IMG/VR virus record: IMGVR_UViG_3300017710_000033
Coordinates: 1 to 30,202 of that record
DNA: 30,202 bases
Direction: 5' to 3' (one strand)
From: a virus
Shown: positions 1,566-29,749 of the stretch, one piece after another
How the letters are laid out: each line of letters starts with the position of its first letter
Position numbering within the stretch: the first letter of the stretch is position 1
The notes under the pieces: generated by a model
Database searches by the model: none
What the model saw: the letters and a program-made list of their open reading frames with translations, nothing else
What the model was told of the DNA's origin: nothing
Translations under genes and position numbers: made by a program

Positions 1566-1892
1566 ATGACTGTTCGCTATGACGAGGTACATTTATATGC
1601 GAAACCAGGTCAGGCCGCTTGCGCGACAATGAGGCAGTGGCTTGACAGTAATGGGGTTGCATTTACAAACCTAGATTATCAAGACCCCACTGAGACGTTG
1701 GCCGCACTATCTACATGGTTTCAAGATGAAGAAGGCAACGACATTAATCTTACTGACACTCCTGTTCTTGTTTATGACAGGGTGATGTGGGAAGCGGACG
1801 ATAAGTCCGATAGATACGCGCACCGTCAACATGTAACGGACGTGTCAAATTTACCAGATGATTTTTTAACGCTAGTTGATAAGGTGTCGTAA
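1566..1892 (+). CDS. Glutaredoxin-like protein lacking the first active-site cysteine
   Basis: 108 residues. The frame is open further upstream inside the fibre gene, but the ATG at 1566, one base after the fibre stop, is the sensible start. The N-terminus has a beta strand then Tyr-Ala-Lys-Pro-Gly-Gln-Ala-Ala-Cys, which aligns by eye with the glutaredoxin active site (YSKPGCPYC), with the first Cys replaced by Gln. A helix and strand follow (WLDSNGVAFTNLDYQD), and a Thr-Pro-Val-Leu-Val-Tyr segment fits the cis-Pro strand of thioredoxin folds. The C-terminus is Asp/His-rich and unlike standard glutaredoxins. Glutaredoxins normally carry out thiol-disulfide exchange; here only one catalytic Cys remains, so it would be monothiol or non-catalytic. 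Its place between two receptor-binding genes leaves open a chaperone or assembly role. The fold assignment is by motif only. Confidence 0.5.
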   Translation: MTVRYDEVHLYAKPGQAACATMRQWLDSNGVAFTNLDYQDPTETLAALSTWFQDEEGNDINLTDTPVLVYDRVMWEADDKSDRYAHRQHVTDVSNLPDDFLTLVDKVS

Positions 1893-3730
1893 TGCCGTTA
1901 CTTGGGGTCTCACTTCGAGCAGACCCCCTGTTTCCTGGGGGTCAACAAACTTTTACATCAGACGGGACGTTCAACGTCCCCGCAGGTATTTCTGTTGTTA
2001 CCGTTCGGGCTAAGGGGCTAAACGGAACAGACGGCTCTCCAGGCGGTACTGGGGCTGATGGCAGTCAAGGCGCTACTGGCAATGCAGGCAACTCAGGCAA
2101 CAACGGAGCAGGCGGAGCAGGGGGGTCGGCTGGTAATCCTGGTAACGACGGTAATTCGGGTAACAACGGTACGGCTGGAAACGGCGGTAGCGCTGGCAAC
2201 CCAGGCACTGCTGGCAACCCAGGCAACGCTGGAAATAACGGAGTGCGCGGCAATGGTGGCGCGCGAGGTAATGCAGGCAATCCAGGCGCAACAGGGAACT
2301 CAGGCGGCGCTGGAAACGGCGGAGGCGGAGGCGGCGGAGGGGGTGGTGTAGGCATAAAACTGTATGCTGGCCCGAATGGCTCTCCAGGCGGCACATCCCC
2401 TGGCCCTGGTGGTGCTGGAGGCGCGCAAGGTAACTCGGTTGCAACTGGCGCTATTGTTGGCGGGACGATGCCAAACGCAGGTGGCGCTGGAGGTGTAGGC
2501 ACTAACGGAAACAACGGCAACACGGGCGGTGGCGGGAATGGAGCCAACGGAGGCTCGTCGGGCAACCCTGGGAACGCTGGAGCAAATGGCAACGCGGGCA
2601 ACGTAGGAAGTAATGGTAATGGAGCCACGTCTGGTAACGCAGGCAACAACGGGGCAAACGGAAACGCTGGCTCTGCTGGTTCGGGCGCGGGCGCGGGTGG
2701 CTCTGGTAGCGCTGGTAGCAACGGTACTGCTGGCAACACTGGCGCACAAGGAGCCGCTGGTGCAACAGGCTCGGCTGGTGCAGACGGAAGTCCTGGGGCT
2801 AGTTCTTTATTTGGTGGATATCACACATTTGCTGGAGGTGCTGGAGGTGCTGGAGGTGCTGGCGGAGCAGGTGGTATAGGTGGTCCAGGTGGTACGGGCG
2901 GAAACGCTGGTCTTGCTGGTAATGCTGGAGCAGATGGCAACCCAGGAACTGTTGGCAACGGTGGTAATGGCGGCTCTGCTGGTAATGCAGGCAATCCTGG
3001 TAATAGCGGCAATAACGGTGTTCGAGGAAACGGTGGCGCACGGGGCAACGCAGGTAACTCAGGAACTCCTGGTAACTCAGGAAACTCTGGAAGCAATGGT
3101 AACGGCGGCGGTGGAGGGGCAAGAGGAAACCGTGGTGGTGGCGGTAATGGTGGTGCGGCGGGTAATGTAGGACAAGTCACCGCTCCTAGCGGAAGCATTG
3201 GTAGCCCTGACGGAAATAGAAACTCCTTTGGCAATGGTGGCGCAGGCGGGCCTAGCTATGGCCAAGCCACTGGAAATGCCAATACGGGCCGAGGCGGAAC
3301 TGGTGGGCGCGGTGGTCGTCCCAATAACGGTGGTGGCGGCTCAGGCGGTAACGCAGGGTCAAACGGAAATGCTGGTAACGTAGGAAGCAACGGCAATGGA
3401 GCCAATAACGGCTCTAGCGGGAATCCAGGAAATGCTGGCGCAAATGGAAACCCAGGAAACGCTGGTAGTGGAGCTACGTCTGGAAACCCAGGAAACGCTG
3501 GAGCCGCTGGGAACGCGGGGGCAGGTGGCTCAGGCGCTACGTCTGGCAATGCAGGTAGCGCGGCTCCATCTACTTGGGCAGGAAAAGCGGGAGCATCAGG
3601 AGCGGCGGGAGCCGCAGGAGGCACGACTGCCTACGCAGACCAAGTAATAAGAATTACTGAAGCCCAGCAAGCAATTGCCCTAACAGTTGCTTCTGGCACA
3701 GAAATGGTAGTTACCTTCGAGAGACAATGA
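1892..3730 (+). CDS. Collagen-like Gly-X-Y repeat protein, probable adhesin
   Basis: 612 residues; the ATG overlaps the preceding stop by one base (TAATG). Residues 1-41 form a short beta-type head (QQTFTSDGTFNVPAG, then VVTVRAKG) resembling the start of glycine-rich phage domains. Residues 42 to about 579 are almost continuous Gly-X-Y triplets rich in Asn, Ala, Ser and Gly, with about ten Gly-Asn-Pro triplets and a poly-Gly stretch near nt 2318-2349. Two breaks contain ordinary sequence (YAGPN...TMPNAGG; LFGGYHTFAGG). The final ~33 residues (from TAYADQ) form a C-terminal beta-like cap. This could be a collagen triple helix or a polyglycine-II bundle like the receptor-binding tip of phage S16 gp38. 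Role inferred: receptor binding. The repeats are internally duplicated (see separate entry). The long reading frames on the other strand here are by-products of the repeat composition. Confidence 0.8.
   Translation: MPLLGVSLRADPLFPGGQQTFTSDGTFNVPAGISVVTVRAKGLNGTDGSPGGTGADGSQGATGNAGNSGNNGAGGAGGSAGNPGNDGNSGNNGTAGNGGSAGNPGTAGNPGNAGNNGVRGNGGARGNAGNPGATGNSGGAGNGGGGGGGGGGVGIKLYAGPNGSPGGTSPGPGGAGGAQGNSVATGAIVGGTMPNAGGAGGVGTNGNNGNTGGGGNGANGGSSGNPGNAGANGNAGNVGSNGNGATSGNAGNNGANGNAGSAGSGAGAGGSGSAGSNGTAGNTGAQGAAGATGSAGADGSPGASSLFGGYHTFAGGAGGAGGAGGAGGIGGPGGTGGNAGLAGNAGADGNPGTVGNGGNGGSAGNAGNPGNSGNNGVRGNGGARGNAGNSGTPGNSGNSGSNGNGGGGGARGNRGGGGNGGAAGNVGQVTAPSGSIGSPDGNRNSFGNGGAGGPSYGQATGNANTGRGGTGGRGGRPNNGGGGSGGNAGSNGNAGNVGSNGNGANNGSSGNPGNAGANGNPGNAGSGATSGNPGNAGAAGNAGAGGSGATSGNAGSAAPSTWAGKAGASGAAGAAGGTTAYADQVIRITEAQQAIALTVASGTEMVVTFERQ
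2015..3630 (+). repeat. Gly-X-Y repeat tract with an internal ~259-codon duplication
   Basis: Two separate anchors recur at exactly 777 nt spacing: the block encoding NNGVRGNGGARGNAGN at 2234 and 3011, and the block containing aacgtaggaag at 2600 and 3377. A GNGGSAGN block recurs at 786 nt, and a GSSGNPGNAGAN block at 858 nt, so short triplet gains or losses occurred around the anchors. The first block is identical over 16 residues while 11 of its 16 codons differ synonymously. Confidence 0.8.
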
Positions 3731-4431
3731 TTTTCGGAAACCCAAAAGTTACTTTTACAACTTACCCAGAGCTATATGATGTAATTCCTGAGCCTGTACC
3801 TGCGCGCTCAATGTTGCCTGACTGGTTTAAAAAGTTAAAAGGGTTTAGTAGTCTTGAGTCAGAGAACCCTAGCGGCTGGCCTGACAGAAGTATAAAGCGT
3901 TGCCCTCCAGTATTGGATGCAATGGTAAGTGGATGGATATTAACTACGCCCGCAGAAATGAGGGTTGTTATCAATGAGGACGGCAGTGGTGTGGAGTGGG
4001 ACACAGAGTTTAGTCACAGCGTAATCGAGGACCACTCAATACAACAAATAAAAGGACACCCGTCCCTGCCTAGACTGCCATTAAAAATAATGAACTACTG
4101 GCACATGAAAACACCCCCAGGTTGGTCTACGTTGTTTGTCCCTCCACTAAATAGAGTTAACGAATATTTTGAACCTATGTCTGGAGTTGTTGAGACGGAT
4201 AAATATTTTGAGTTTGTAAACTTCCCTAGCTTCTTAAAACATACAGGGACGACATTTATCATTCCACGAGGCTATCCTGTCGTTCAAGCAATACCTTTTA
4301 AAAGAGGGTTTAGCAGAAAGGCCGACATACGGGCGATGAAGCCAAGGGAGTCTGATGCGCTTGAATTGTTGCGCAAAAAACGTACAAGTCACCCAGGCAT
4401 ATATAGAGAGACTATGTGGGAAAGAAAATGA
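3727..4431 (+). CDS. Uncharacterised protein of a marine-phage family (DUF6065-like)
   Basis: 234 residues; the ATG overlaps the previous stop by 4 nt (ATGA). Recognisable pattern: early Pro-Glu-Pro-Val-Pro-Ala then LPDWFKKL, an IKRCPPVLDAM segment, then KTPPGWSTLFVPPLN, GVVETDKYF, VNFPSF and a C-terminal IPRGYPVVQAIPFKR. I recall this arrangement from proteins near tail-fibre genes of marine phages; DUF6065 is my tentative name and needs a profile search. No catalytic motif, signal peptide or membrane segment is visible. The predicted all-beta core and its place between an adhesin and an oxygenase suggest an accessory role in fibre modification or a small-molecule enzyme, but the function is unknown. 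Confidence 0.6.
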   Translation: MIFGNPKVTFTTYPELYDVIPEPVPARSMLPDWFKKLKGFSSLESENPSGWPDRSIKRCPPVLDAMVSGWILTTPAEMRVVINEDGSGVEWDTEFSHSVIEDHSIQQIKGHPSLPRLPLKIMNYWHMKTPPGWSTLFVPPLNRVNEYFEPMSGVVETDKYFEFVNFPSFLKHTGTTFIIPRGYPVVQAIPFKRGFSRKADIRAMKPRESDALELLRKKRTSHPGIYRETMWERK

Positions 4432-4682
4432 GTAAAATAAATTACAAAATTTTAGCCTTTGATGACATTACTTTTGAGTATGTGGTTTTAGCTAACGACA
4501 AGAAATTTAATGTTCCCGCTGTTGTGGTAGATGGTTTGGTAGATAAAGAGGAAACCACCAAAGTCATTGAGGCAGAGGTAAAGAATGTTTTTGCCGTTCG
4601 GACTCCTCCAAGCCCCCCAACCAACTATGTTGACCTTGTGGGTGCTGGCTCTTCAGTAGATTTGTCGGCAGAAGAAGTATGA
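4428..4682 (+). CDS. Small uncharacterised acidic protein
   Basis: 84 residues starting at the ATG that overlaps the preceding stop (ATGA); a GTG twelve bases upstream is in frame but a less likely start. The N-terminal half looks beta-rich (INYKILAFDDITFEYVVLAN), followed by an acidic helix and a Pro-rich turn (RTPPSPPTNYVDLVG). No known domain recognised. The tight 4-nt overlaps on both sides suggest coupled expression with its neighbours. Confidence 0.65.
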   Translation: MSKINYKILAFDDITFEYVVLANDKKFNVPAVVVDGLVDKEETTKVIEAEVKNVFAVRTPPSPPTNYVDLVGAGSSVDLSAEEV

Positions 4683-5380
4683 CAGAAGGTCATACAACAA
4701 AAATTTTAGACGAAGTGCTTACGTCTTCAGACGGAATTACTTTGTCAAAAGTAAATTACGAAAAAAAAGAAACCATTATTTGGCCCCGAAGCACGCATAG
4801 CGTTGACATTACTAAAGCAGAGTACCACCCAGAAACTAATAGTTTAATTAAAGACACATCCCCTTGGTTTTTTTACACACCCACCCCTGACTCGTCAGAG
4901 GGTTCGTATATGAGTATTACCTATCCAATTTTGCAAAATGGTGTTAGCGCAAACGAAGTATCTAAGCATTTTGTCTCAAGCACTGATTGTTTTGACGCTG
5001 GCCTCAACTCTGATGGTATATTTGAAATACTGTTGGACGCTTCTGTATGGTGGAGGCAAACAGAGTGGAAGAGCGTGGCGGCTCCCTACTACCCTCTTTG
5101 GCTTCGTCTCGAACAAGAAGTGCTAGACCCCACCACGCGTTTGGCATGCACAGTTCCAAAAGGCCTTAATATGTTTTGGAACCGTTTTGCATTGCCTTTG
5201 CTTGCTGGCAAGTCGGTTGAAATAAACAAGTCGGGCGATGAGTGCTATTTTATTTCTGTTGAAAGCGATTTAATCTGCGGAGATAAAACTATCAGCAAAG
5301 ATAAGATTATTAGAATTTCTTCGCCTAGTGTAACAGTAACAGCCAAGACAGATACGATACTCCTGAAAGTATATAGATGA
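4679..5380 (+). CDS. Uncharacterised protein with a possible cupin-like C-terminus
   Basis: 233 residues, start overlapping the preceding stop by 4 nt. The N-terminal part contains aromatic-rich stretches (TSPWFFYTP, ASVWWRQTEW, YYPLWLRLEQE). The last ~55 residues read as short beta strands ending with a CGDKTISKDKIIRI turn and VTAKTDTILLKVYR, a pattern resembling the second half of a cupin barrel; this is inference from periodicity, with no conserved metal-binding histidines seen. The gene directly precedes, and overlaps, the 2OG-Fe(II) oxygenase, so a partner or substrate-handling role is possible. Otherwise unknown. Confidence 0.6.
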   Translation: MTEGHTTKILDEVLTSSDGITLSKVNYEKKETIIWPRSTHSVDITKAEYHPETNSLIKDTSPWFFYTPTPDSSEGSYMSITYPILQNGVSANEVSKHFVSSTDCFDAGLNSDGIFEILLDASVWWRQTEWKSVAAPYYPLWLRLEQEVLDPTTRLACTVPKGLNMFWNRFALPLLAGKSVEINKSGDECYFISVESDLICGDKTISKDKIIRISSPSVTVTAKTDTILLKVYR

Positions 5381-5919
5381 TTTTTGACCCTCACTTTTGG
5401 TTGTTCGACAGTGTGTTGAGCGATGGCCTGTGCGATTTAATTATTGAGCGCGGCAACGAAATGAACAAAGAGCTAGGTGTTGCTGGAGGTGAGGTTGTGC
5501 TTGATATGCGTAAGTCTCACATAGCCTGGTTCGACCATAACGATTGGATTGCTGGCCTGTGCTATCACTATGCAACATTGGCCAACAAGCAGGCTTGGAA
5601 TTTTGATATTGATAATATGGACGGCTGTCAGTTCACTGAATATGGAGTGGATGAGTTTTATGAGGCGCACATGGACACGCATAAATTGTGTGATGATATG
5701 CGTAAGGTAAGTGTTGTTATGCAACTTAATTCAAAAGAAGACTACCAAGGTGGTGAGTTTTTATTTGTAGATGGAGATGAAGGATATGAACCTGATAATT
5801 TTGCTAACCGCGGTTCCGTTATTGTGTTTCCTAGCTTTTTATATCATCAAGTCAAACCAGTAACAGGCGGTAAAAGACACAGCATTGTAAGTTGGTTTAC
5901 AGGGCCGCAAATCAAATAG
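5377..5919 (+). CDS. 2-oxoglutarate/Fe(II)-dependent oxygenase, prolyl-4-hydroxylase-like
   Basis: 180 residues, start overlapping the preceding stop by 4 nt. The iron-binding triad is visible as His98-x-Asp100 (EAHMDTH) and His157 (FLYHQVKPV), and Arg167 ten residues after the distal His is placed to bind the 2OG carboxylate (GGKRHSIVSWFTGP). DYQGGEFLFV and RGSVIVFPSF are typical core strands of the P4Hc fold. Such enzymes hydroxylate protein side chains or small molecules using O2 and 2OG, releasing CO2 and succinate, in the cytoplasm. The length is that of a single-domain phage enzyme. The substrate is not shown by sequence; the X-Pro-Gly triplets of the collagen-like protein 1.6 kb upstream are a natural candidate. 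It ends the first tightly packed gene run. Confidence 0.9.
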   Translation: MIFDPHFWLFDSVLSDGLCDLIIERGNEMNKELGVAGGEVVLDMRKSHIAWFDHNDWIAGLCYHYATLANKQAWNFDIDNMDGCQFTEYGVDEFYEAHMDTHKLCDDMRKVSVVMQLNSKEDYQGGEFLFVDGDEGYEPDNFANRGSVIVFPSFLYHQVKPVTGGKRHSIVSWFTGPQIK

Positions 5920-12414: not shown

Positions 12415-13961
12415 TGGCAAGGTTAAGACAACAAAACCCACAAAACTATGTGGCAAGTAGCAATATCAACGCTGAGTTTGAAAATGTTATTAGGTATCTG
12501 AATAGCGCAGAACTTGGAGAAAAAACTCTTGGAGAGCTTCTCAAGGTTCTGTTCACCGAAGATGGTGTTTGGCAGGGTCCAATTGAGTTCCGTAATGATA
12601 GCTCTGCTGGCATCCAATATCGCGTTGGCTCTTACAATGACACCACCACAGGCTGGACAACCCTGGCTACGCTCGACAGTCTGCGCGGCGCAAGCGGTTC
12701 AGACATTGGAACAGTTGGTGCGCCAATCATTCACACCCGTCAGGATACAGTAGCTACCTCTGCTCAAACCGTTGTTAACTACGCGCATGACACCACAGAC
12801 GAGCTATTAGTTTACGTAAACGGCTTGTTAAAACGCTCTGGCGGCTCAAATGATTACACAAGTAGTGCCGCAGGAAACACGGTGACATTTAACTCTGGCC
12901 TGACTGCTGGCCACATTGTTACCATTTACAAAATTCGAGCAACTTCGATTACTGGTTTCACACGCTCTGATACAGTTACCACTTCGTCTCAGACAGTGTT
13001 CCCGTTTGTACATGATGACTCCACTGTATTGCAGGTGTATAAAAACGGCATCTTGCAAAGAGAGGGTGGCGCTAACGACTATGTGACTAATGCCGCATCT
13101 GACACAGTCACTATGACAAGCTCCATTCCAAGCGGCAACATACTTACAATCGTTACTGTTGAAAATACATCAGCCAATACAATCACTGGCCTGATGACAG
13201 AAACAAAATTTACAGACACCGCCACTGGTAAAATTCCATTTAGTAAACTGCAAATTGCAGACGCTGATGTAGCTCAAGCAAAAGTAGTTGGCCTTGTTTC
13301 TCATATTGCGTCTGCCGCGAAACTTACGACTAGCGGCTCAACACCAGCAGGCCCATCAACTGGAGACCTTTGGCTAGATACGTCTCAGTCGCCAAACGTC
13401 CTTAAATTTTACGACGGCGCGCAGTTTCTTCAGACGTCGCCAGAAAGCGGGTTGCCAACATTCTCTACGTCTAACGCTGGCCAAGTCGTCCAGGTAAATG
13501 GTACGGGTACAGCATTGCAGTACGCGGCCGTTGACCTTTCGTCTCGGATTGCTACGACACAACGCGGAGCCGCCAACGGCGTAGCGTCCCTCGATTCGTC
13601 TGGCCGACTGCCGTCGGCTCAACTGCCCACATCTATTTCATCTGGTAGTTTTTACAAGTCTGTCGCGGGGTCAGTCTCAAATAGTGCGCAAGTTATCCAG
13701 CGTATTTTTAAACAACGCATACAAATTGATGCGGTACATGTTGTCTGCGCCTCTGGTACAGGAACAGTGCAAATACAAGTAAATGGTGTGAATGTAGGTC
13801 AGACAGTTAATGTTTCATCTAGCGATAACAGCGTGACGCTGTCCACACCGCAAGAAATAGACGCCACTTCTGCGAACAAGAAGATTGGTTTTAATATAAC
13901 CAATGCGGCGAGCTTGAATGATTTAGAGGTGACTTTCGCCTTCAGTATCTTGAGTAGCTAA
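12414..13961 (+). CDS. Second tail fibre-like structural protein
   Basis: 515 residues from the ATG at 12414 that overlaps the previous stop (TAATG); an in-frame TTG 42 nt upstream is unlikely. Residues ~20-95 form an N-terminal attachment-type region. Residues 107-253 contain two tandem ~75-residue beta domains, starting HTRQDTVATSAQTV and FTRSDTVTTSSQTV. Then come a helical linker, a GDLWLDTSQSPNVLKFYDG motif shared with the fibre at the window start, a fibre-like segment (GVASLDSSGRLPSAQLP), and a C-terminal beta domain of ~95 residues. Probably a tail fibre or tail appendage; a separate locus from the upstream fibre suggests two receptor-binding systems. Confidence 0.75.
   Translation: MARLRQQNPQNYVASSNINAEFENVIRYLNSAELGEKTLGELLKVLFTEDGVWQGPIEFRNDSSAGIQYRVGSYNDTTTGWTTLATLDSLRGASGSDIGTVGAPIIHTRQDTVATSAQTVVNYAHDTTDELLVYVNGLLKRSGGSNDYTSSAAGNTVTFNSGLTAGHIVTIYKIRATSITGFTRSDTVTTSSQTVFPFVHDDSTVLQVYKNGILQREGGANDYVTNAASDTVTMTSSIPSGNILTIVTVENTSANTITGLMTETKFTDTATGKIPFSKLQIADADVAQAKVVGLVSHIASAAKLTTSGSTPAGPSTGDLWLDTSQSPNVLKFYDGAQFLQTSPESGLPTFSTSNAGQVVQVNGTGTALQYAAVDLSSRIATTQRGAANGVASLDSSGRLPSAQLPTSISSGSFYKSVAGSVSNSAQVIQRIFKQRIQIDAVHVVCASGTGTVQIQVNGVNVGQTVNVSSSDNSVTLSTPQEIDATSANKKIGFNITNAASLNDLEVTFAFSILSS
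12732..13170 (+). repeat. Tandem ~75-residue domain duplication in the second fibre
   Basis: The segment from HTRQDTVATSAQ to VTIYKI and the segment from FTRSDTVTTSSQ to LTIVTV align over their length, sharing DTV.TS.QTV, VY.NG.L.R.GG.NDY and a final T.G.I.TI strand pattern. Unit starts are 225 nt apart. The pair resembles repeated fibre shaft or binding modules. Confidence 0.75.
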
Positions 13962-14374
13962 TGGCGGCAGAGCCGACTAGCCACAAACAAGATGTGATAG
14001 CTAAGGTCTGCGCCGTAAGGTGCAAATGCCCTCCCATTCCAGAGCCTAACTCCTCTATAGGCTTCGTAAAGGATGGGAACTTGGTAGGTGGCGTCACTTA
14101 TTCAAGTTACACAGGGCGCGAGATTTGGGCGGCTATATGGGTGGACGACAGGTCTGTCTGGAGCAGGAAGAATCTTAATACCATGTTTAGCTATCCTTTT
14201 GAGGAGTGCGGTGTGGTTCGGTTGTGTGGTTTAGTTTCTGTAAGGAACACGGCCAGTTTGAAGATGATGGAGCGGATGGGTTTTGTTCGAGAAGGATTGT
14301 ATAGAAAGTATTTTCCGAACGATGTAGATGCAGTAGTTTTTGCTATGTTAAAAGAAGAGTGTAAGTGGATATAA
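13961..14374 (+). CDS. GNAT-family N-acetyltransferase
   Basis: 137 residues, ATG overlapping the previous stop by one base. The C-terminal half carries the RimJ/RimL-style pattern: a strand, then VRLCGLVSVRNTASLKMMERMGFVREGLYRKYF, with Asn-x-x-Ser-x-x-x-Met and Gly-Phe-x-x-Glu-Gly before the last strand (parts of this stretch: GLVSVRNTASLKMMERMGF). The family transfers acetyl from acetyl-CoA to amines or protein N-termini. The N-terminus is shorter than in RimJ, so the acceptor site may differ. GNATs are seen among phage structural genes; the substrate may be a virion protein or a host protein, which cannot be decided here. Confidence 0.85.
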   Translation: MAAEPTSHKQDVIAKVCAVRCKCPPIPEPNSSIGFVKDGNLVGGVTYSSYTGREIWAAIWVDDRSVWSRKNLNTMFSYPFEECGVVRLCGLVSVRNTASLKMMERMGFVREGLYRKYFPNDVDAVVFAMLKEECKWI

Positions 14375-19843: not shown

Positions 19844-22800
19844 GTGGCACAAGATGATTTCCCCACCCGACGTGTAGGCTTTGAACAAAATCTTACAGGC
19901 TTTGACAACCCCGTAAATCCAAATGGAGTTTTAAGCTCCTCTTCAGGGCTAGACGCTCTGCAAGACCCACAGTTTATTTCTGAACTGATGGAGTATTACG
20001 GCAAGCAAGGAGACGTCGCAGACCCATCAAACATCGAAGAACTACTCGACCAATTCTACGAAGACCAGACGTGGAAAGGTATGAACGCGGGTTCAGCGGT
20101 TCTTGATATTATGGAAACAAGGGGGCAGGACGAGCGTCAAGTTCAACTTAAAGGGCGTATGAAGCAAGTTTTTGACAGCTTGCCAGACGCTTTTGACAAG
20201 GGTGGTCGTGGGTTTGGCGGGTTCGCGCAAAATGCGGCCGCGGCAATTCTTGACCCAGTTAATATCGTTGGCTTTGGTTCTGGTGCTTTAGCGGCTAAAG
20301 CCGCCGCACGAGCCGCAACCAATGTCACACAAAAACAAATGCTTGGAAGAGCGGCAAAAACTGGTGCTATTGCAGAAGGTGTTGTCGGTGTTGGTGTTGG
20401 TGGGGTTCAAGATACTCTACAACAAAACAGAGACCTAGCGACAGGCATCCAGGATGAGTTTGATACTACGCGCGCCATTGGCGCGGCAGCGGCGGAAGGC
20501 CTTTTAGGGGTTGGCCTCGGCGGGTTGTTTGGTCTTGCGGGTGGTGCGGCCGCTGTGCAAGCTCGCGCTGGTGCTGGCGCGTCTAAAACAGATAAAGTTG
20601 CCAGCGCTGTATTGGCTCCTGCTCGTGTTGCGGGACGCTTTTTAGACAAAGCTGTTTACGGCCCATTTGGAAAGCAGTTTACTCTACAAGCTGAAAACGC
20701 ACGTCTAAACGAGTTAGGTTTTACTGATGCTCAAATTGCACAGTTAGTTGATGAGGCACAAAAAAAAGGTCAAAACGCAAAAGCAGAAATAGCGACTATT
20801 TTAAGAAACAGCATACAAGCAGACGACTATATGGTGCGCACTCAGGAAGGTAATGCTGAGGATATAGAGCTACCCTCCCAAGAAGAGATTGACGCTATTG
20901 GAGAGGACGTTGTAGAAGACTCTCGATTCCCAGGTTTACAGCAAGAGCTAGCTGAATCAGAGGCGGACCTTGCAAAGCGACAAGTTGAATTACAACAGGA
21001 TTTAAATGAGGCGCGCCAAAAGGGTGACACAGAAAACGAAGCACAAATAATAAAAGAACTCACCACTGTCGCCTCGATGGAGGGGCTTGCCACTAGAATT
21101 TCTAATTACCAAGATGAAATTGCCGCAGACTTAGTAAGTCCGAACGCCGCTACAATAGCCGCGGCCCAAAAGCGTATCGGTGACTTACGTACACTTATAG
21201 CTGATTATAAAAACTTCACTCGCAATGGCGATGCTGTTACAGCCCAAGCAGTAAAAGAAAGCGAACAAGTAGTAGTAGCTGGTGGCCCCGCCCCAGCAAG
21301 TCAAGCGCCAGCGCCCACTCCTACAGCAACACAAGCTGTAGAAACTCCTGCCGAAGCGCCCGTCACTGAAGCCGCGCCAGTAGAAGCTCCTTCGCCCGTG
21401 GAAACAAGTGCAGAGTTACCTCAAAGCATGTTCTCTACCTCTGCCGTAAGAGGTATGGCGCAAAACGCTGGTTTAACAGAAGCAGACTTTGAGGGTGTTA
21501 CTCCAACTACAAAATCAGGTAAAAAATACAACGTCAAAGATGTTAAGAAAATCATAGCGTCTAAGGCAGGGCAGACACCAGAGCCAGCTACGTCTCAGCC
21601 TGTTACTGCGCCTGAAGCTGTGACGCCTGAGCCAGTCACACCTGAGCCTGATGTAGAAGCGGCTTCCGTAGACTCTTCTCCGATTGAATACATAATGATG
21701 CAAGACGGGGAATTTTTGCTTCCTGGCTATAGGGAAAAAACGTCAGGCAGAATAATTGTGCGAGACCCAAAAGATGGGGCGGCTATTTCCTTGCCGCAAG
21801 AATCCGCGGGACCAATTACTCCGCTAACAACTGGCACTCTGAGATACCGTAGCAATGAACAGAAAACTGCTATTCAAAATGTTCTATCTCAAATTGGAAA
21901 AACAGAAGAGGATATAGTTGAGGCCGTTGCTCAAGGCAGAATACCTGTATCAAAAGACGGCACAATAAAACAAATCAAACGCCCGAATATTATTCAGGTT
22001 CTTACAGCATTTGACGACGTGGGCGTGGACCCTGTTGACTTGGCGTACCAAAAGCGCGCAGAGCGTGTTTTAACAAAAATTGATAAAGATTTGGGTGGGG
22101 TGTTTGCAAGAATAGTACAGTTAAGACCAGATAAAGCAAGGGAGATAATTTTAAAAGAAGACCCTGAGCAGGGGGACCGTATATTCAATGAGTTGGTAGA
22201 TTCTCTGGATGATGGCGGAATTACGAACGAAAGAAACAGCATAGAAAATGTTGATGGTCAGCCAGAATTTACTGTTACAGAACAGAAAAAAGTAAAACAA
22301 CTTACTAAGAATATGATTGCGCTTGGTTTACCTGAAGAAACAGCCGAGCTTGCCGCAACCATGAAAGTCGTGCAAATGCGCGGCTCTGAAATTCAAAAAA
22401 GCAGTGGCGACCTAGAAGGCCCGCTTGCTAATCCGCCTATTGAAACAACAGCAGGTAGAACAACTTTTAATAAGATACAAAGTTTTTTGAAAAGCGGCGA
22501 GTTTATTGGCCGCGCACCCTCTGTTCCTGAAGGTTTGGACCCAGATACAAAAATTATTTATGGGTATGATAACGCGGTTGTTGAGGCTAATAAGTTAATC
22601 GAAGAAGAATACGAAGTTAGATTTGAAAGAGCCGCCCCCACGGAAGAAAATCCGAACGCTGTGGAAGAAGTTGTGCAAACGCGAACGCGTAGAGTGCCAA
22701 ACACAGGTGTCGTTCGTTACGTCTCAACAGGTGGCGAGTACCTTGCTGATGGCCAAGGAAGCTTGTTACCCAGGGCAGACGGCAAGAAAAATATTATTAA

Positions 22801-25800
22801 ACCAGAAGCCGCCACAAGAGGTCAGAGTTATTGGCACGACCCTATAACCAACAAGGCGTGGAAAAACGAAGCCAACATGCGGGTGGCTCGTGGCGAAGGC
22901 CCGAACCAAACACACTACGCATCAACAGACGTACCTGTAGATACAGACAAAGACATACTTGATAGAGCGTTTGAGAGATTTGAGCTTGACGGCGACATGG
23001 CGGCACTCGGTGAGGCTGTCAAAAATACTGGCAAAAACAGTCTTGTTCCTATTACTAGCGAAGTCCCTGATGTTCCCGTCCTAAGCACAAATGGAAAGCG
23101 CATAGCGCTACGCAACAAAGAAACAGGAAATATACGTGTTATTGGTCAGAACCAAATAGACGACGGGAAGGGACTCGAAGCACTTCTTGGGAAAGCAGAC
23201 ATTGAAGACTTTGATATTGGACACACCAAGGGTGCGCGTAACTCTAAAACGGCTACAGAAGAATTTGAAGTCTGGTCTCCTGATGGAGCCAAGAGAGCAT
23301 ATTTAACTGCCCAGCAAGCATCTCAACAAGTAGTTGATTTAACACCCCTTAAGTTTGTGCAGGAATTGGATGGCCTAAAAGAATTAGTAGAAGATATGCC
23401 TATGCCTAGTGACAGGCGCGTATCAATTTCTACTACCATTAGTCGTCTTGCTGAACGCGCGGGCGAAGTAGACAAACTTACATTTGTGTCGGCTATAAAT
23501 TCAATAGAAAACGATATTGGTTGGCCGCGTCTAGGTCAGGGAGATTTAAAAAGAAGCTACGCAGAAATTTTTACAGCCCTGCACAACTTTAGAAAATCTA
23601 TTGTACCTGACGACATAAGGTTTCCTGGCGAAACTATTGGCGAGTCTCAAAGACAGCTTAAGGGAATACTTAGAACTATGTCAGGGAAAGAGACCGCAGA
23701 GATTACCTCTGTGCTACGCACCCTGTCTGAGCAAGCGGACGATTTAGCTCCCGCCTTCAAAGAGGGCGATGGAAATTATTACATTGATTTTTCAATAGAT
23801 GGTGATGATAAGTCTAGGTTGAGCCGTTTAAATCACGTCGCATTGTCTAAAAAAGAAAATGTAAGTAATCCCAAAATAAGGACTGTTTTACATGAGCTTG
23901 GTCATTGGGCTTATCATAATGTATTAACACCTGAAGATAAGTTGGAATTTTGGAAAACTGCTCAAGGTTATATAGACGCAGACACTGGTTTAGTAGACGA
24001 GCCTAAGTTGGCTAGAAGCCTATACAACTTGGAAGAAAACCCAATACACTCAGAAATGTTAAACCACCCTGGGGGCGTGGTTAGAGTCGGAGACAAAAAA
24101 TTTAGCTCGAACCACCACCTAAGTCCGCAAGAATGGTTTGCTACACAGTTTTCTAATTGGGCTATGAACGAAAGACTAGCTCCAGAGTTTAGGGAAGAAA
24201 GCTACTGGAATAAAAACCCAATTATGAGAGATGTATCCAGATACGTTAAGTCTATCGTGGATTTCTTTTTGCACAGAAAGGGTGTGGACCCAGACTTGGT
24301 TCCGATATTCAGCAAAATTATTCCTGATAATTTGCAAGCCGCGGCATTGGCCGACGGCGTTATGACACCCACGTCTAAAGCAGGCAAGGATGTGCATAGA
24401 ACAATGATTGATTTGACTATGTACCGAGATGACCTGCAAGAAGCAATAGATAGTGGCAACGACGAGGGTATTGTCTTTCATGCCCAAATGTTGGCCAACA
24501 GGCTTTATGGTATTGCGGCCCCAGAATATAAACGCAGAGGCCCAGTTGGTGAAAAAGGCAAACCGTTTATGCTTTTTGGTCAAACTCACAAACTGTCCCA
24601 GACTTTATACGGCAAAATATACGACGCTCTTGGCGAAGATGTTTCTACATTAAGTGTTAGCGAAGTTGAAAATCTTGGTTTTAGCTATGACGCAGTATCG
24701 CGGGACATGATTGCTGACGCAGATAGAATTAGACAAATTTTTTACGGCCAAGACGAAGGCTCTAAGTTTGATGTCAATGAACTTATGGGCATCATTATTA
24801 ATGATGGACGTAAGGCTTTTAACAAACTGTCTGATGAACCTGTAAAAATGAAGGGTGGTTATCCAGGCATTGAGTTTGCGCCTAAGTCACCACTCAAAGG
24901 GTACGCCAAATATTCTAAAATGTTGCGCGACGGAACACGTAAGAAAAAACGTATTCAAGAAAAGCGAACCAAAGAAACTCGTCAAAACGCAGACGCCGCT
25001 AGGCTGAATAAATCTCCCACAGTTGCACAAATAGACGATGGCCAGGCGGTCAGTTACAGGCTAGCAACGGCGACACAACTTTCTGACGAGCTAGGTAAGT
25101 ACGGCGAAACAGATTACGGTAAAATGGTTGCGCGTCAAATGAAAGAAAACGAGCGCACCGCTCCACTTTCCAACGAAGTAGAGCCTCAGCAAATAGACGA
25201 CCAGTACACGCTTGACGCTATTAGCAAGGAGATTGAAGAAACTCAAGGGATTTCGACTACAAATGTAAGCCCTGGCGCGCGGCCAGGCATTAACTTAGCG
25301 CAAGAAAAACTTAGCCACCGAGACGTCGATAGAACTAATATTATGCGGACAGTATTTTACCGCATGGCAAACATAGTGGGAACAGCACGACCCAACCGTC
25401 GCATGCACCTAGCAATGATGGGCGTTAGCGATGTCAACGAAGTTGCCAGAAGAATAAATACGTCTGACCCCCAAAACCAATTACCTGGCTCGCCTCCTGC
25501 CAATTATCTTAATGAACAAATTGAAACAGATGGGCCAGAATTTAAAGAGCTTAGAGATAAAATTCGCAGTTTATCTACAAACCTTTCTCCTAAATCAGAA
25601 AAAGCGACAGGTCAAAAAAACGCAAAGCTCGTCGTTGAAGATGTTATCAGGGCGATTGTTATTATGGACCCGCGCCAAAAACTTCACCAAGAGATATGGA
25701 GAAAAACATTTGGTCCTAAAAACCAAGGCGGACAAGGGTTAGAAGTTACTCAGGCAAACTGGGACAAGGCGCTAAATGATTTAGTCAAAAAAGTCTCTGG

Positions 25801-28800
25801 CAATATGTCGGGAACAGAGCCTTTTGATGAAGCGACTGCGGGTGTTCTGCCAAGCCATGTGCATACAGTAAAACAGCACGTCGCCTACATACTGAATGGC
25901 CAGATGGACACACGACTTAAGAAAGCCCACCCTGTACTTGACGCATACGGAAACGTGTTCAACCTCGAATCACAAAGAGAAAGCATTGATGAAGTGTTCT
26001 ACCCAAGTCGCTATGACGACGAGGCTACGGGCGATGTGTCTGGCTTAAAAAGAACTACCGAAGCGTTCTGGAATAACTCTAGTCAAAATAGAAAAGACGC
26101 AATTAACGACTTTACAGGCAACGCCGATGTAAATAATCCGCCTACAATGTTTACACTTACTGTTGCTGATGTCGGTGGCAAGAGGCCTCACGTCTTAGGT
26201 GAGCGCGGTCTTGAACCACAGGTCACAACAGACAAGCGTTACGGTAATGGCACTAAAGTACGTGAATTAGTTAACGAGCAAGAGCAACAATACCACGAAA
26301 CTATGGTCGGTGCTTTGCGCGAAGCGGGCGCACCAGAAGGTGATATAAATAAGTATAACGATTTGCTCGAAATGCGGGAGGTAATGAAAGACTCGATTAT
26401 GCACCTCCAAGCAAAATCGTTTGATAGAGAAAGAAACTCGGAAGGTATTGGACATTTTGAACGTCAAATAGATAACGTCTATGACAACCTACTAGTCATC
26501 AATGAAGAGTTGGATGAAATACTTGATGGATTTAATGTAAGTCGCCAAGACAAGCACATCCCTGTTTACATGGCCGATGCGAGAGTTTTTGATTTCACTA
26601 TTGGCGCAGAGTACGGCGTGGATGACATCTCTTTTATTCGGGGTGTCATGGCCGCTATAGACCAACGCTCATCATTCGACACTGAGTCTCCTATAAATAT
26701 GATTAGCTCACGAGGCTACATTACAGGCGATGCACTGCATCAAGAGTTTGTAGACGTAATACAAGAGGTTGCTAGGGAAAATAGTGGACGACCAATTTCA
26801 TTAACCAGCGCGTCTGAAAGACTAAATAAAATCTTAAAAGACCAGGGCTATGATGGAATTAAGGGGCATGAAGACGGCGACCTTACCACAGACAATCCGT
26901 TTACCATGTTGTTTGAGGCCCAAGGTAAAATCAAACACGCTATGGCTGACGAATTTGATGACAACCGTCACATTACTGGATACCTCTATGACAAAGAAGA
27001 GGTGTCGAGAATAAACAGCCAGCTTATAAACACCATGGACGAGCAAGGTCAACTCGGTGAGTCTCAGACTGTCACAATAGAAGAGGGCTTAAGAAATGCT
27101 GGCGTCTCAGCAAATGCGGCCTCTGCTGTAGGTCAAATTGCTAGAGGAAAAGTACCTGCTGGACGTCAACAAAGCGCTCTTAGACGCGCTCTTAATATAG
27201 GGCTTGGTGAAAACTCCCACAACATGAGACGTTTTGGAATGAACTGGGTGGCTGATTGGATTTCTCCTGCACGTATGGAGGGGACAGGACACTATGAGCG
27301 TCTTGCGGGACGCACGTCTAACCACGTATCTCCAGTTTTTGAAGCTCTTGCTGGGTTGCCTGGAGGTGGCGGTATTAAGAATTGGGCGCGCAAGGCAAGT
27401 GACTTCAACATTGGCAAGGCCAGCCTACATCACGCTATGGGTGTAGACCAGCCTCGTGGTTATGAAAAAATTGTAAACGCAATTAGACGCGGACCAGGTT
27501 CTAACGCTGTAAAAAATCTTACGAACGCTGAAAATTTTGCGTATAAAAAAGTGCGCGCTATGTTCCAGAACATTCATTACGAACTCACGGAAGCGGGTGT
27601 AATGGTGGGTCGCGTCAAAGACTACTTCCCACAAGTTTGGAGCGTAGAAAAAATCTTACGTGACCCAGACAATTTTAAAGCGGCTTTGGCGAGATACTTT
27701 GTTTCCGAGTCAGAACGTCACGAAGATAGAGTCTTACCTTTTAATAGCGCTCTTGATAAGGCAGGTAGAGTTTACTCACGACTTGTGGAAGAGGACGGTG
27801 TGTACACGCCAGCCCATGGAACCCGCGACACTAACGATGACCACGTTGATTACCAGCGTTTAATACGTCTCGATGAATTTAAAGAACACCTCGATGATGT
27901 TGGTTCTTATCTTGAGAATGACTTAGAAGCTATTGTTAGTAAATACGCTGACAACGCTGTGCGTCGCGTAGATTTGGCAGAAAAATACGGTAATGAAACT
28001 CATGGCTTTTACGACTACATGAGCATAGTCACAGCCAACAGCATGCCAGACCAAATTGCAAAACTTTTATCTACAAAGAAAGTTTCGCGCAAAATTATTG
28101 TTAATAAGCTAAATGATAAAATTGACGAGAGTTTAGAAATTAGGCGCGAATCACCAATGCCGTTTGAGGGCGACGACATCGCCGCGCGAAAAGCGGCCGA
28201 GACCCTAATAAGACTTGCCCCTAAAGGCGAAGCCGCGATGCGTCAGTTTATGAGCAACTTTGAAACTGGCAGAGGTGAGCCAGCTTTTTCAAAACGTATG
28301 GACGCAATCATTGGCGCGATACTTGACCGCCAAAACATGTCTGGCCCAATAGACAGGGACATAGAAAAGTTTGCCATAGGAACTCTTGAGTCCCTACAGC
28401 GCAAGGGTAACGGTGGGTACGGTATATTTGGCACACACGGAACTAGGGCGTCTAAAGTAGTGCGCAACTTTAATGCTATTACACTACTTGGCTCAACAGT
28501 ATTCACGTCCCTTGGTGACGCGGTTCTACCACTCGTAAGGTCGGGTAGTTTTAAGGCGTATACAAAGGCCATGGCCAAATACATGGCCGACCCCCACTAC
28601 CGTAAAATGACACGCAACATTGGGGCCGCGCTTGAAAACCAAATACATGAGCGCATGACGGGTTTGTATGGCGCGGATTCATCTAAGAATACAGTGGCTT
28701 TCTTTAACGCTACGTTACTATCCCCATGGACTGGCTTTTGGCGTAGCACCTCATCTGCTGTTGGGCATGAATGGTTCAAGGCTGAGTATGCTATTGCTTT

Positions 28801-29749
28801 AGCAAATTTCAATCCCGCGGCCAACTTGAGGGAACAGAACAGAAAGTTCCAGAAGTCTTATCGTATTCTTCGTGCATACGGCTTAGACGAATTGCTTGCA
28901 ACCAATCAGCGGATTGATGACTTTGATAGCTTTATACCATCTCCTAGCGACAGCCCTCAAAGGGCTGACGCGAAAGCGCGGGTGCAGGAAGCGGTTATTA
29001 AGTTTTCTAACCAGACTATTTTTACGCCAAATGCAAACGACATACCCCTGTTTGCACAGTCTCCTATAGGGCAAATTGTATATCAGCTTAAATCATTCCC
29101 GATGATGATGGGTAGAACAGCTTATGACGTAGGACGTCTTGGGCTTGCCGCAGACCCCGTAACAGGTGGTGGACGTAGGTTCTCTCCAGCAATCATGCTT
29201 GCTTCTGTAGCGCCAATGATTGGTGGTGGAAGTGCAAACCTTGTAAAAGATTACGTCCAAGCTCGCGGGGAAGATAACACCAGGCAACCGCGTGAACGCT
29301 CATTCAACGAGTTAGCCGAGTCAGTTGGCTGGGACGGAAGAGTCCACGGCGATATATACGGAATTAGCGCAGACGCCTTCTGGGGTAACTACGTAGAGGG
29401 CATGATACAAATGGGTGGCTTAGGCTTGTTGGCAGACATCTTCTATCAAACCGCAGAGCAAGCAGACAATGGGACTTATGGTGCGCAACGCATAGTTTCA
29501 GTGTTCGGTGGGCCGACTGCTGGGTTAGCGTTCGATGCCGTTAAAGTGTATCAAGGTATAGCTGACCAAAACGATTCGAGACGTTACCCAGAAAGAGCCG
29601 CGGCACGAGTAGTAGCGAACCGCATACCTGTGCTTGGTGGATACCGAGACGTAAGGGAGGGAATTACAACCGCTATTGCTGGGCCACCAAGTAGAGGTGG
29701 CGGCGCAAGTAAATCAGACTTTATGAAGAACTGGATGAAAGGAAACTAA
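19844..29749 (+). CDS. Giant polyvalent virion protein with metallopeptidase and ART-like regions
   Basis: 3301 residues; GTG start with GGAG 7 nt upstream. The upstream frame is closed by a stop 33 nt before it and offers no ATG, so GTG is chosen. Order: ~130-250 Gly/Ala-rich hydrophobic segment; ~363-422 coiled coil; ~480-526 and ~578-608 Pro/Ala/Thr-rich linkers around a ~45-residue domain (528-573) resembling a peripheral subunit-binding domain; His1350-Glu-Leu-Gly-His1354 zincin motif with a candidate third ligand Glu1430 (SPQEWFA); ~2238-2375 an ADP-ribosyltransferase-like polyvalent region (IPVYMADA ... GYDGIKG ... KIKHA); YFPQVW near 2594; hydrophobic stretches near 2866-2900 and 3111-3135. 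Giant proteins like this are injected with phage DNA. No lytic transglycosylase and no RNA polymerase motifs were found, so it is not clearly like T7 gp16 or N4 vRNAP. Confidence 0.8.
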   Translation: MAQDDFPTRRVGFEQNLTGFDNPVNPNGVLSSSSGLDALQDPQFISELMEYYGKQGDVADPSNIEELLDQFYEDQTWKGMNAGSAVLDIMETRGQDERQVQLKGRMKQVFDSLPDAFDKGGRGFGGFAQNAAAAILDPVNIVGFGSGALAAKAAARAATNVTQKQMLGRAAKTGAIAEGVVGVGVGGVQDTLQQNRDLATGIQDEFDTTRAIGAAAAEGLLGVGLGGLFGLAGGAAAVQARAGAGASKTDKVASAVLAPARVAGRFLDKAVYGPFGKQFTLQAENARLNELGFTDAQIAQLVDEAQKKGQNAKAEIATILRNSIQADDYMVRTQEGNAEDIELPSQEEIDAIGEDVVEDSRFPGLQQELAESEADLAKRQVELQQDLNEARQKGDTENEAQIIKELTTVASMEGLATRISNYQDEIAADLVSPNAATIAAAQKRIGDLRTLIADYKNFTRNGDAVTAQAVKESEQVVVAGGPAPASQAPAPTPTATQAVETPAEAPVTEAAPVEAPSPVETSAELPQSMFSTSAVRGMAQNAGLTEADFEGVTPTTKSGKKYNVKDVKKIIASKAGQTPEPATSQPVTAPEAVTPEPVTPEPDVEAASVDSSPIEYIMMQDGEFLLPGYREKTSGRIIVRDPKDGAAISLPQESAGPITPLTTGTLRYRSNEQKTAIQNVLSQIGKTEEDIVEAVAQGRIPVSKDGTIKQIKRPNIIQVLTAFDDVGVDPVDLAYQKRAERVLTKIDKDLGGVFARIVQLRPDKAREIILKEDPEQGDRIFNELVDSLDDGGITNERNSIENVDGQPEFTVTEQKKVKQLTKNMIALGLPEETAELAATMKVVQMRGSEIQKSSGDLEGPLANPPIETTAGRTTFNKIQSFLKSGEFIGRAPSVPEGLDPDTKIIYGYDNAVVEANKLIEEEYEVRFERAAPTEENPNAVEEVVQTRTRRVPNTGVVRYVSTGGEYLADGQGSLLPRADGKKNIIKPEAATRGQSYWHDPITNKAWKNEANMRVARGEGPNQTHYASTDVPVDTDKDILDRAFERFELDGDMAALGEAVKNTGKNSLVPITSEVPDVPVLSTNGKRIALRNKETGNIRVIGQNQIDDGKGLEALLGKADIEDFDIGHTKGARNSKTATEEFEVWSPDGAKRAYLTAQQASQQVVDLTPLKFVQELDGLKELVEDMPMPSDRRVSISTTISRLAERAGEVDKLTFVSAINSIENDIGWPRLGQGDLKRSYAEIFTALHNFRKSIVPDDIRFPGETIGESQRQLKGILRTMSGKETAEITSVLRTLSEQADDLAPAFKEGDGNYYIDFSIDGDDKSRLSRLNHVALSKKENVSNPKIRTVLHELGHWAYHNVLTPEDKLEFWKTAQGYIDADTGLVDEPKLARSLYNLEENPIHSEMLNHPGGVVRVGDKKFSSNHHLSPQEWFATQFSNWAMNERLAPEFREESYWNKNPIMRDVSRYVKSIVDFFLHRKGVDPDLVPIFSKIIPDNLQAAALADGVMTPTSKAGKDVHRTMIDLTMYRDDLQEAIDSGNDEGIVFHAQMLANRLYGIAAPEYKRRGPVGEKGKPFMLFGQTHKLSQTLYGKIYDALGEDVSTLSVSEVENLGFSYDAVSRDMIADADRIRQIFYGQDEGSKFDVNELMGIIINDGRKAFNKLSDEPVKMKGGYPGIEFAPKSPLKGYAKYSKMLRDGTRKKKRIQEKRTKETRQNADAARLNKSPTVAQIDDGQAVSYRLATATQLSDELGKYGETDYGKMVARQMKENERTAPLSNEVEPQQIDDQYTLDAISKEIEETQGISTTNVSPGARPGINLAQEKLSHRDVDRTNIMRTVFYRMANIVGTARPNRRMHLAMMGVSDVNEVARRINTSDPQNQLPGSPPANYLNEQIETDGPEFKELRDKIRSLSTNLSPKSEKATGQKNAKLVVEDVIRAIVIMDPRQKLHQEIWRKTFGPKNQGGQGLEVTQANWDKALNDLVKKVSGNMSGTEPFDEATAGVLPSHVHTVKQHVAYILNGQMDTRLKKAHPVLDAYGNVFNLESQRESIDEVFYPSRYDDEATGDVSGLKRTTEAFWNNSSQNRKDAINDFTGNADVNNPPTMFTLTVADVGGKRPHVLGERGLEPQVTTDKRYGNGTKVRELVNEQEQQYHETMVGALREAGAPEGDINKYNDLLEMREVMKDSIMHLQAKSFDRERNSEGIGHFERQIDNVYDNLLVINEELDEILDGFNVSRQDKHIPVYMADARVFDFTIGAEYGVDDISFIRGVMAAIDQRSSFDTESPINMISSRGYITGDALHQEFVDVIQEVARENSGRPISLTSASERLNKILKDQGYDGIKGHEDGDLTTDNPFTMLFEAQGKIKHAMADEFDDNRHITGYLYDKEEVSRINSQLINTMDEQGQLGESQTVTIEEGLRNAGVSANAASAVGQIARGKVPAGRQQSALRRALNIGLGENSHNMRRFGMNWVADWISPARMEGTGHYERLAGRTSNHVSPVFEALAGLPGGGGIKNWARKASDFNIGKASLHHAMGVDQPRGYEKIVNAIRRGPGSNAVKNLTNAENFAYKKVRAMFQNIHYELTEAGVMVGRVKDYFPQVWSVEKILRDPDNFKAALARYFVSESERHEDRVLPFNSALDKAGRVYSRLVEEDGVYTPAHGTRDTNDDHVDYQRLIRLDEFKEHLDDVGSYLENDLEAIVSKYADNAVRRVDLAEKYGNETHGFYDYMSIVTANSMPDQIAKLLSTKKVSRKIIVNKLNDKIDESLEIRRESPMPFEGDDIAARKAAETLIRLAPKGEAAMRQFMSNFETGRGEPAFSKRMDAIIGAILDRQNMSGPIDRDIEKFAIGTLESLQRKGNGGYGIFGTHGTRASKVVRNFNAITLLGSTVFTSLGDAVLPLVRSGSFKAYTKAMAKYMADPHYRKMTRNIGAALENQIHERMTGLYGADSSKNTVAFFNATLLSPWTGFWRSTSSAVGHEWFKAEYAIALANFNPAANLREQNRKFQKSYRILRAYGLDELLATNQRIDDFDSFIPSPSDSPQRADAKARVQEAVIKFSNQTIFTPNANDIPLFAQSPIGQIVYQLKSFPMMMGRTAYDVGRLGLAADPVTGGGRRFSPAIMLASVAPMIGGGSANLVKDYVQARGEDNTRQPRERSFNELAESVGWDGRVHGDIYGISADAFWGNYVEGMIQMGGLGLLADIFYQTAEQADNGTYGAQRIVSVFGGPTAGLAFDAVKVYQGIADQNDSRRYPERAAARVVANRIPVLGGYRDVREGITTAIAGPPSRGGGASKSDFMKNWMKGN

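Follow-up and report, generated by a model that had tools for sequence, protein, structure and literature searches.

Introduction

The use of prolyl 4-hydroxylase (P4H) by viruses has been called cryptic (PMC9301287), and hydroxyproline in viral proteins was proposed from the enzyme of PBCV-1 (Eriksson et al. 1999, as cited in PMC9301287). Here we describe a run of six genes (positions 1566–5919) in a virus record of 30,202 bases (IMGVR_UViG_3300017710_000033, analysed over its whole length and referred to below as the window), in which the gene for a 612-residue glycine-rich protein is followed by one for a 2-oxoglutarate (2OG)-Fe(II) oxygenase. The safest statement, on the sequence evidence presented, is that oxygenases of this kind go with Gly-rich tail proteins. 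Beyond that, we regard as evenly poised the proposal that the run is a tail-adhesin maturation cassette in which the neighbouring adhesin is hydroxylated by the oxygenase, with the prolines of Asn-Pro-Gly as the most likely sites.

The nearest solved fold to the window oxygenase is the collagen prolyl hydroxylase vCPH of PBCV-1 (5c5t), likewise a virus-encoded 2OG-Fe(II) enzyme. PBCV-1 is a virus of eukaryotic algae, and we know of no tail adhesin cassette, DUF6065 protein or fibre tip in it. The P4H of Bacillus anthracis (3itq, 5hv0) is a bacterial prolyl 4-hydroxylase that aligns along the entire profile of the phage oxygenase family; it differs in being a cellular enzyme and in having Lys at the 2OG-binding position, where the phage oxygenase has Arg. 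The proteins with which it is partnered are of the Gly-Pro-Thr (GPT) type.

For the Gly-rich protein the closest comparison is gp38 of Salmonella phage S16 (6F45), a host-range adhesin of more than 50% Gly that caps the tail fibre and carries poly-Gly runs and hypervariable loops (PMC6851490). The window protein, compared by sequence alone, would resemble it as a Gly-rich polyglycine-II adhesin with poly-Gly and loops, whereas sequence searches gave no homology between the two and the Gly-rich domain of gp38 is shorter. No report linking an oxygenase to S16 gp38 was found in the open-access literature. Collagen-like phage tail fibres (GPT/GPQ) share the Gly-X-Y repeats but are high in proline, which they place at X, and are rarely linked to an oxygenase. 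The clusters of cyanomyoviruses (syn9, S-CREM1, P-TIM40 and S-RIM44) have, in this order, Gly_rich_2 tail proteins, DUF6065-like proteins and 2OG oxygenases downstream of fibre genes; they differ in also encoding tryptophan halogenases and several 2OG paralogues, and their Gly-rich proteins are not of the Gly-Asn-Pro-Gly (GNPG) type. For the 2OG oxygenases of phages, earlier authors either left the function undecided or proposed a part in 2OG metabolism or DNA repair (PMC3037559, PMC9602691), and we found no prior report in the open-access literature of a phage collagen paired with a prolyl 4-hydroxylase and a tail fibre. Few genes without an explanation are as common in aquatic phages as these oxygenases, and tying them statistically to a single class of tail protein provides a concrete, testable substrate.

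Results

The association was measured by motif scans of viral contigs; all counts are among the matches listed, and the contigs share lineages and habitats. Open reading frames (ORFs) with strict Gly-X-X (GXX) repeats and at least 1.5 kb of downstream sequence were scored for an oxygenase within 4 kb downstream. One was present for 26 of 34 ORFs with proline at the Y position of the repeat, as against 11 of 71 with proline at X (GPT; Fisher p 1.5e-9, a value that is optimistic given that scope and the shared lineages and habitats). The preliminary description of this locus had named as a test whether the two genes co-occur in related phages; the correlation turned out to be strong, specific to proteins with Y-proline and spread across unrelated phages, the 29 linked Y-proline loci falling into 20 clusters at 60% oxygenase identity. 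A second survey, in the opposite direction, took protein motifs and not the oxygenase as its starting point; it found a same-strand oxygenase in the fetched stretch for 63 of 92 Gly-rich ORFs with the motif GNPGNxGN, compared with 2 of 21 non-Gly-rich ORFs carrying the same motif and 9 of 86 Gly-rich ORFs of the GPT type. In bacterial genomes 0 of 41 Gly-rich GNPG ORFs had an oxygenase neighbour, a set used as background control only, many of its members looking like GC-rich repeats.

Within the phage family of the window, all eight contigs that cover the region and have a major capsid protein identity of at least 83% carry the full cassette of Gly-rich protein, DUF6065 and oxygenase. Among relatives with capsid identity below 78% no long Y-proline GXX protein was found; one (L057) has a short GPP-type run and another (L025) a Gly_rich_2 protein. 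In unrelated phages the recurring module consists of a fibre C-terminal domain, a glutaredoxin-like protein, a GXX protein, DUF6065 and an oxygenase. The last three are in matching order at 31–44% identity in L100/L101 and L102, and profile scans detected them at many further loci, L122–L133 and L159 among them. The glutaredoxin-like gene is conserved between the fibre and Gly-rich genes at many loci, including the window's own phage clade and L100/L101. The last 120 residues of the fibre recur upstream of Y-proline GXX proteins in unrelated phages, and none of the GPT-collagen loci examined yielded a match to this domain.

The oxygenase had been described as prolyl-hydroxylase-like, and both profile and fold bore this out: by prediction it is a prolyl-hydroxylase-like protein hydroxylase. 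It scored 59.7 bits with PF13640 (2OG-FeII_Oxy_3; gathering cut-off 27), and the active-site set noted before, His98-x-Asp100, His157 and Arg167, proved exact, the three Fe ligands and the 2OG-binding Arg showing no variation among 11 homologues whose identity falls as low as 31%. The family profile matched B. anthracis P4H over the full length (1e-10), and its best local match was to a PKHD-type hydroxylase (8e-13). An AlphaFold model (pLDDT, the predicted local distance difference test, 88) had the double-stranded beta-helix fold and 431 PDB matches at E ≤0.001; the nearest solved fold was that of vCPH (Z 17.8, root-mean-square deviation 2.9, 164 residues aligned, 21% identity), with which the Pseudomonas putida P4H (17.2), PiuC/PKHD (17.1) and PHD2 (16.9) were tied within one Z unit.

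For the Gly-rich protein, residues 41–575 are 40% Gly, with a poly-Gly run and aromatic loops, and contain 162 Gly(i)/Gly(i+3) pairs; 2000 shuffles that preserved composition gave 86 ± 5.6 and at most 106. The periodicity on which the preliminary description had remarked is therefore far above chance, but "close to strict Gly-X-Y" was an overstatement: there are 134 Gly-X-Y triplets, and runs of at least five GXX triplets account for 402 of the 612 residues, forming two long blocks, of 37 and 38 triplets, plus a number of short ones, with loops and poly-Gly interrupting them. Its count of about ten GNPG units with most prolines at Y was accurate, as exactly 10 are present and proline within the GXX runs has a Y:X ratio of 13:1. 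Asn occupies 58 of the 134 X positions and directly precedes each GNPG proline.

The collagen-like nature attributed to the adhesin did not hold up so well. Proline was found at 14 of the 268 X and Y positions (5%) and an extra Gly in 38 of the 134 triplets (28%), whereas in the GPT class about 42% of triplets have proline and 4% an extra Gly. Low proline and extra Gly favour polyglycine-II packing over a collagen triple helix, and on its make-up the protein may adopt a polyglycine-II lattice like that of S16 gp38, "collagen" probably naming the wrong fold. The long uninterrupted Gly-X-Y and high imino-acid content looked for in a triple helix were absent. The Pfam Collagen profile (PF01391) gave 22.7 bits, below its cut-off of 27.2, while the homologue in L010 clears it (52.5 bits); the match of the window protein to animal collagens was rejected as homology and attributed to repeat composition. 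PHROG tail-fibre matches were weak, and there was no match to Gly_rich_2 (PF21722) with the whole protein or its N-terminal 53 residues alone, although the N-terminal motif FTSxGTFxVPxG resembles cyanophage proteins that do match that profile. A tblastn search against phage records found nothing, the low-complexity filter masking the query, and motif scans with a GXX counter were used for Gly-rich proteins in its place. Because the Gly-rich adhesin of S16 caps its fibre, the window protein is, by analogy, probably a fibre tip.

At another locus (L023, 3001–5319) the GXX blocks of the Gly-rich protein are separated by a globular insert of some 180 residues, which may be a domain that binds carbohydrate or a receptor domain; a globular loop insert would be as expected of a receptor-facing scaffold.

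The window belongs to a marine phage whose major capsid protein shares 74.5% identity with its counterpart in Roseobacter phage CRP-810. Its gene order runs from the tail fibre through the six-gene run to small genes, scaffold and capsid and then virion genes; at the equivalent place (portal/fibre to capsid) CRP-810 has a 1252-residue fibre without the six-gene run. The Gly-rich and oxygenase ORFs lie where the preliminary description had placed them, and the features are as follows.

2–1564, + strand: tail fibre protein, truncated at its 5' end by the edge of the window (phrog_21412 tail fiber, 1.4e-20; homologue of CRP-810 gp57)
About 1196–1558, + strand: fibre C-terminal domain, the part of the fibre that travels with the module
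1566–1892, + strand: small glutaredoxin-like protein without a CxxC motif (Pfam Glutaredoxin weak, E 0.033, below cut-off)
1892–3730, + strand: Gly-X-X-rich protein, 612 residues, 10 GNPG units; a candidate for the fibre-tip adhesin and for the substrate of the hydroxylase
3727–4431, + strand: DUF6065 protein (Pfam PF19541, 4.5e-7; phrog_7084, 9.7e-52)
4428–4682, + strand: small protein between DUF6065 and the downstream genes, 88-residue ORF
4679–5380, + strand: 233-residue protein without a Pfam or PHROG family match, conserved in position and fast-evolving (26–83% identity)
5377–5919, + strand: 2OG-Fe(II) oxygenase of prolyl-hydroxylase-like type, 180 residues (Pfam 2OG-FeII_Oxy_3, 5.5e-16; phrog_61)

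From the Gly-rich gene to the oxygenase gene each neighbour overlaps the next by 4 nt (3727/3730, 4428/4431, 4679/4682 and 5377/5380), as had been reported, provided that the 88-residue ORF starts at the internal ATG at 4428 and not at the GTG at 4416. The place of this ORF is taken by an unrelated-looking small ORF in the cyanophages syn9, P-TIM40 and S-CREM1.

The DUF6065 protein scored 30 bits with its Pfam profile (cut-off 26.6). A weak model (pLDDT 68) gave dUTPases as the best fold matches (Z ~10), the conserved motif GVVETDKY looks like a degenerate form of a dUTPase motif, and the homologue in S-CREM1 bears the annotation nucleotidohydrolase; on this modelling the family may be a repurposed trimeric dUTPase fold, and a role as assembly or scaffold factor is possible. 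Because the model is weak the dUTPase-like match was not used in the argument. DUF6065 alone was rejected as a marker of the adhesin/oxygenase pair, since haloviruses carry it and in the two stretches read (HF1 and HRTV-2) no oxygenase match adjoined it.

Discussion

In the mechanism that we propose, the Gly-rich protein would be a structural component, probably of the fibre tip, attached to the C-terminal domain of the fibre encoded upstream, and the oxygenase would hydroxylate it during infection, before assembly. The site would most likely be the Asn-Pro-Gly prolines, in the Y position, giving 4-hydroxyproline, and the modification would alter how stable a polyglycine-II-like lattice is or how it contacts the receptor. 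The intervening small proteins would act as assembly or folding helpers, and the glutaredoxin-like protein may be a chaperone or a tip component. We infer the substrate, the modified residue, the fibre-tip site and the effect on the lattice, and among these proline is the leading, not a proven, choice of target.

That the pairing recurs in many unrelated phages points to, without proving, a chemical modification of tail tips by the phages themselves. More tentatively, a widespread and horizontally exchanged maturation module, comprising a fibre-tip domain, a glutaredoxin-like protein, a GNPG polyglycine-II adhesin, a DUF6065 helper and a dedicated 2OG oxygenase, may make 4-hydroxyproline or hydroxyasparagine in phage tail tips. 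If so, the module would explain much of the orphan 2OG-Fe(II) oxygenase repertoire of aquatic phages, at present classed as metabolic genes, and enzymatic modification would have to be considered possible on phage receptor-binding proteins, with a bearing on the prediction of host range from sequence and on the production of recombinant adhesins.

Besides the optimistic p value, several results weigh against a prolyl-hydroxylating cassette. The 2OG-binding residue is Arg (R167, at +10 from H157), which is PHD/PKHD-like, whereas the B. anthracis P4H alignment has Lys there; the Lys of collagen-type P4H being absent, the oxygenase is not a collagen-type P4H in the strict sense. The modelled fold by itself cannot tell prolyl from other protein hydroxylases, PiuC and the lysyl hydroxylase LH3 also being near. 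Oxygenases of the 2OG type without a GXX partner are common, and within the window's phage family L072 and CRP-810 (gp21) encode a distant 2OG enzyme but no GXX protein; the converse of the co-occurrence therefore does not hold. At L138–L141 the collagen adjoining the cassette has no Y-proline in an 80-triplet run, and prolyl-4-hydroxylation therefore cannot be assumed for every cassette; about 15% of X-proline collagens also have an oxygenase, and together these cases mean that the target residue may differ or not be proline. The earlier interpretation as a whole is thus supported for the type of enzyme and for co-occurrence, but not for the collagen fold or for prolyl-4-hydroxylation in every cassette.

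The first alternative keeps the Gly-rich tail protein as substrate but moves the modification away from the Y-proline, to Asn or to a residue outside the GXX repeats at the N or C terminus. Asn is far commoner than Pro in the protein and precedes every GNPG proline, two asparaginyl beta-hydroxylases have been annotated in cyanophages (PMC3037559), and a non-proline target is also favoured by the cassettes without Y-proline at L138–L141 and by the cyanophage DUF6065/2OG cluster, which adjoins Gly_rich_2 proteins that are His/Ser-rich and not GNPG. However, the nearest folds of the oxygenase are overwhelmingly prolyl hydroxylases, and the linkage is much stronger for Y-proline than for X-proline proteins, which disfavours Asn, though Asn content also differs between the two classes and so is confounded with Y-proline. 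We consider this alternative unlikely.

Equally improbable in our view is that the oxygenase serves metabolism or host takeover as an auxiliary enzyme, acting in 2OG/nitrogen metabolism, in DNA repair or on a host target such as EF-Tu, that hitchhikes in a high-traffic, variable tail-fibre region. Roles in 2OG metabolism or DNA repair were proposed earlier for cyanophage members (PMC3037559, PMC9602691), the P. putida P4H among the near folds was solved in complex with EF-Tu, and the many 2OG genes without a GXX neighbour would fit hitchhiking. Yet hitchhiking does not predict linkage to Y-proline but not to X-proline collagens in similar regions, nor a conserved order across unrelated phages, nor 4-nt overlaps. 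Finally, that both genes merely mark one marine phage gene pool, through shared module ancestry and without functional interaction, is very unlikely: partner type is indeed clustered on the oxygenase tree (11 label changes as against 32.6 in shuffles), which also speaks for the proposed cassette, and several loci are near-copies, but the 20 clusters at 60% identity and the repeated label changes, at least three of them forced by starred branches, disfavour it.

Some related loci are more elaborate. DUF6065 is accompanied by two oxygenases, one of them large (~587 residues), in L138, L139, L140, L141 and L144, and in L138–L141 the neighbour of these genes is an X-proline collagen with abundant GQKGEK, a set that may be a lysyl-hydroxylating relative. 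In the cyanophages syn9, P-TIM40, S-RIM44 and S-CREM1 (L108–L111), Gly_rich_2 tail proteins are followed by one or more tryptophan halogenases, a DUF6065-like protein and two to eight 2OG/JmjC oxygenases, a cluster that looks like a larger tail-protein modification island.

Elsewhere in the window, a single ORF of 3301 residues with a GTG start (19844–29749) probably encodes a giant virion protein, and a GNAT-like acetyltransferase (13961–14374; phrog_4470, 1.1e-32) lies within the tail gene run, with CRP-810 gp40 at the matching place.

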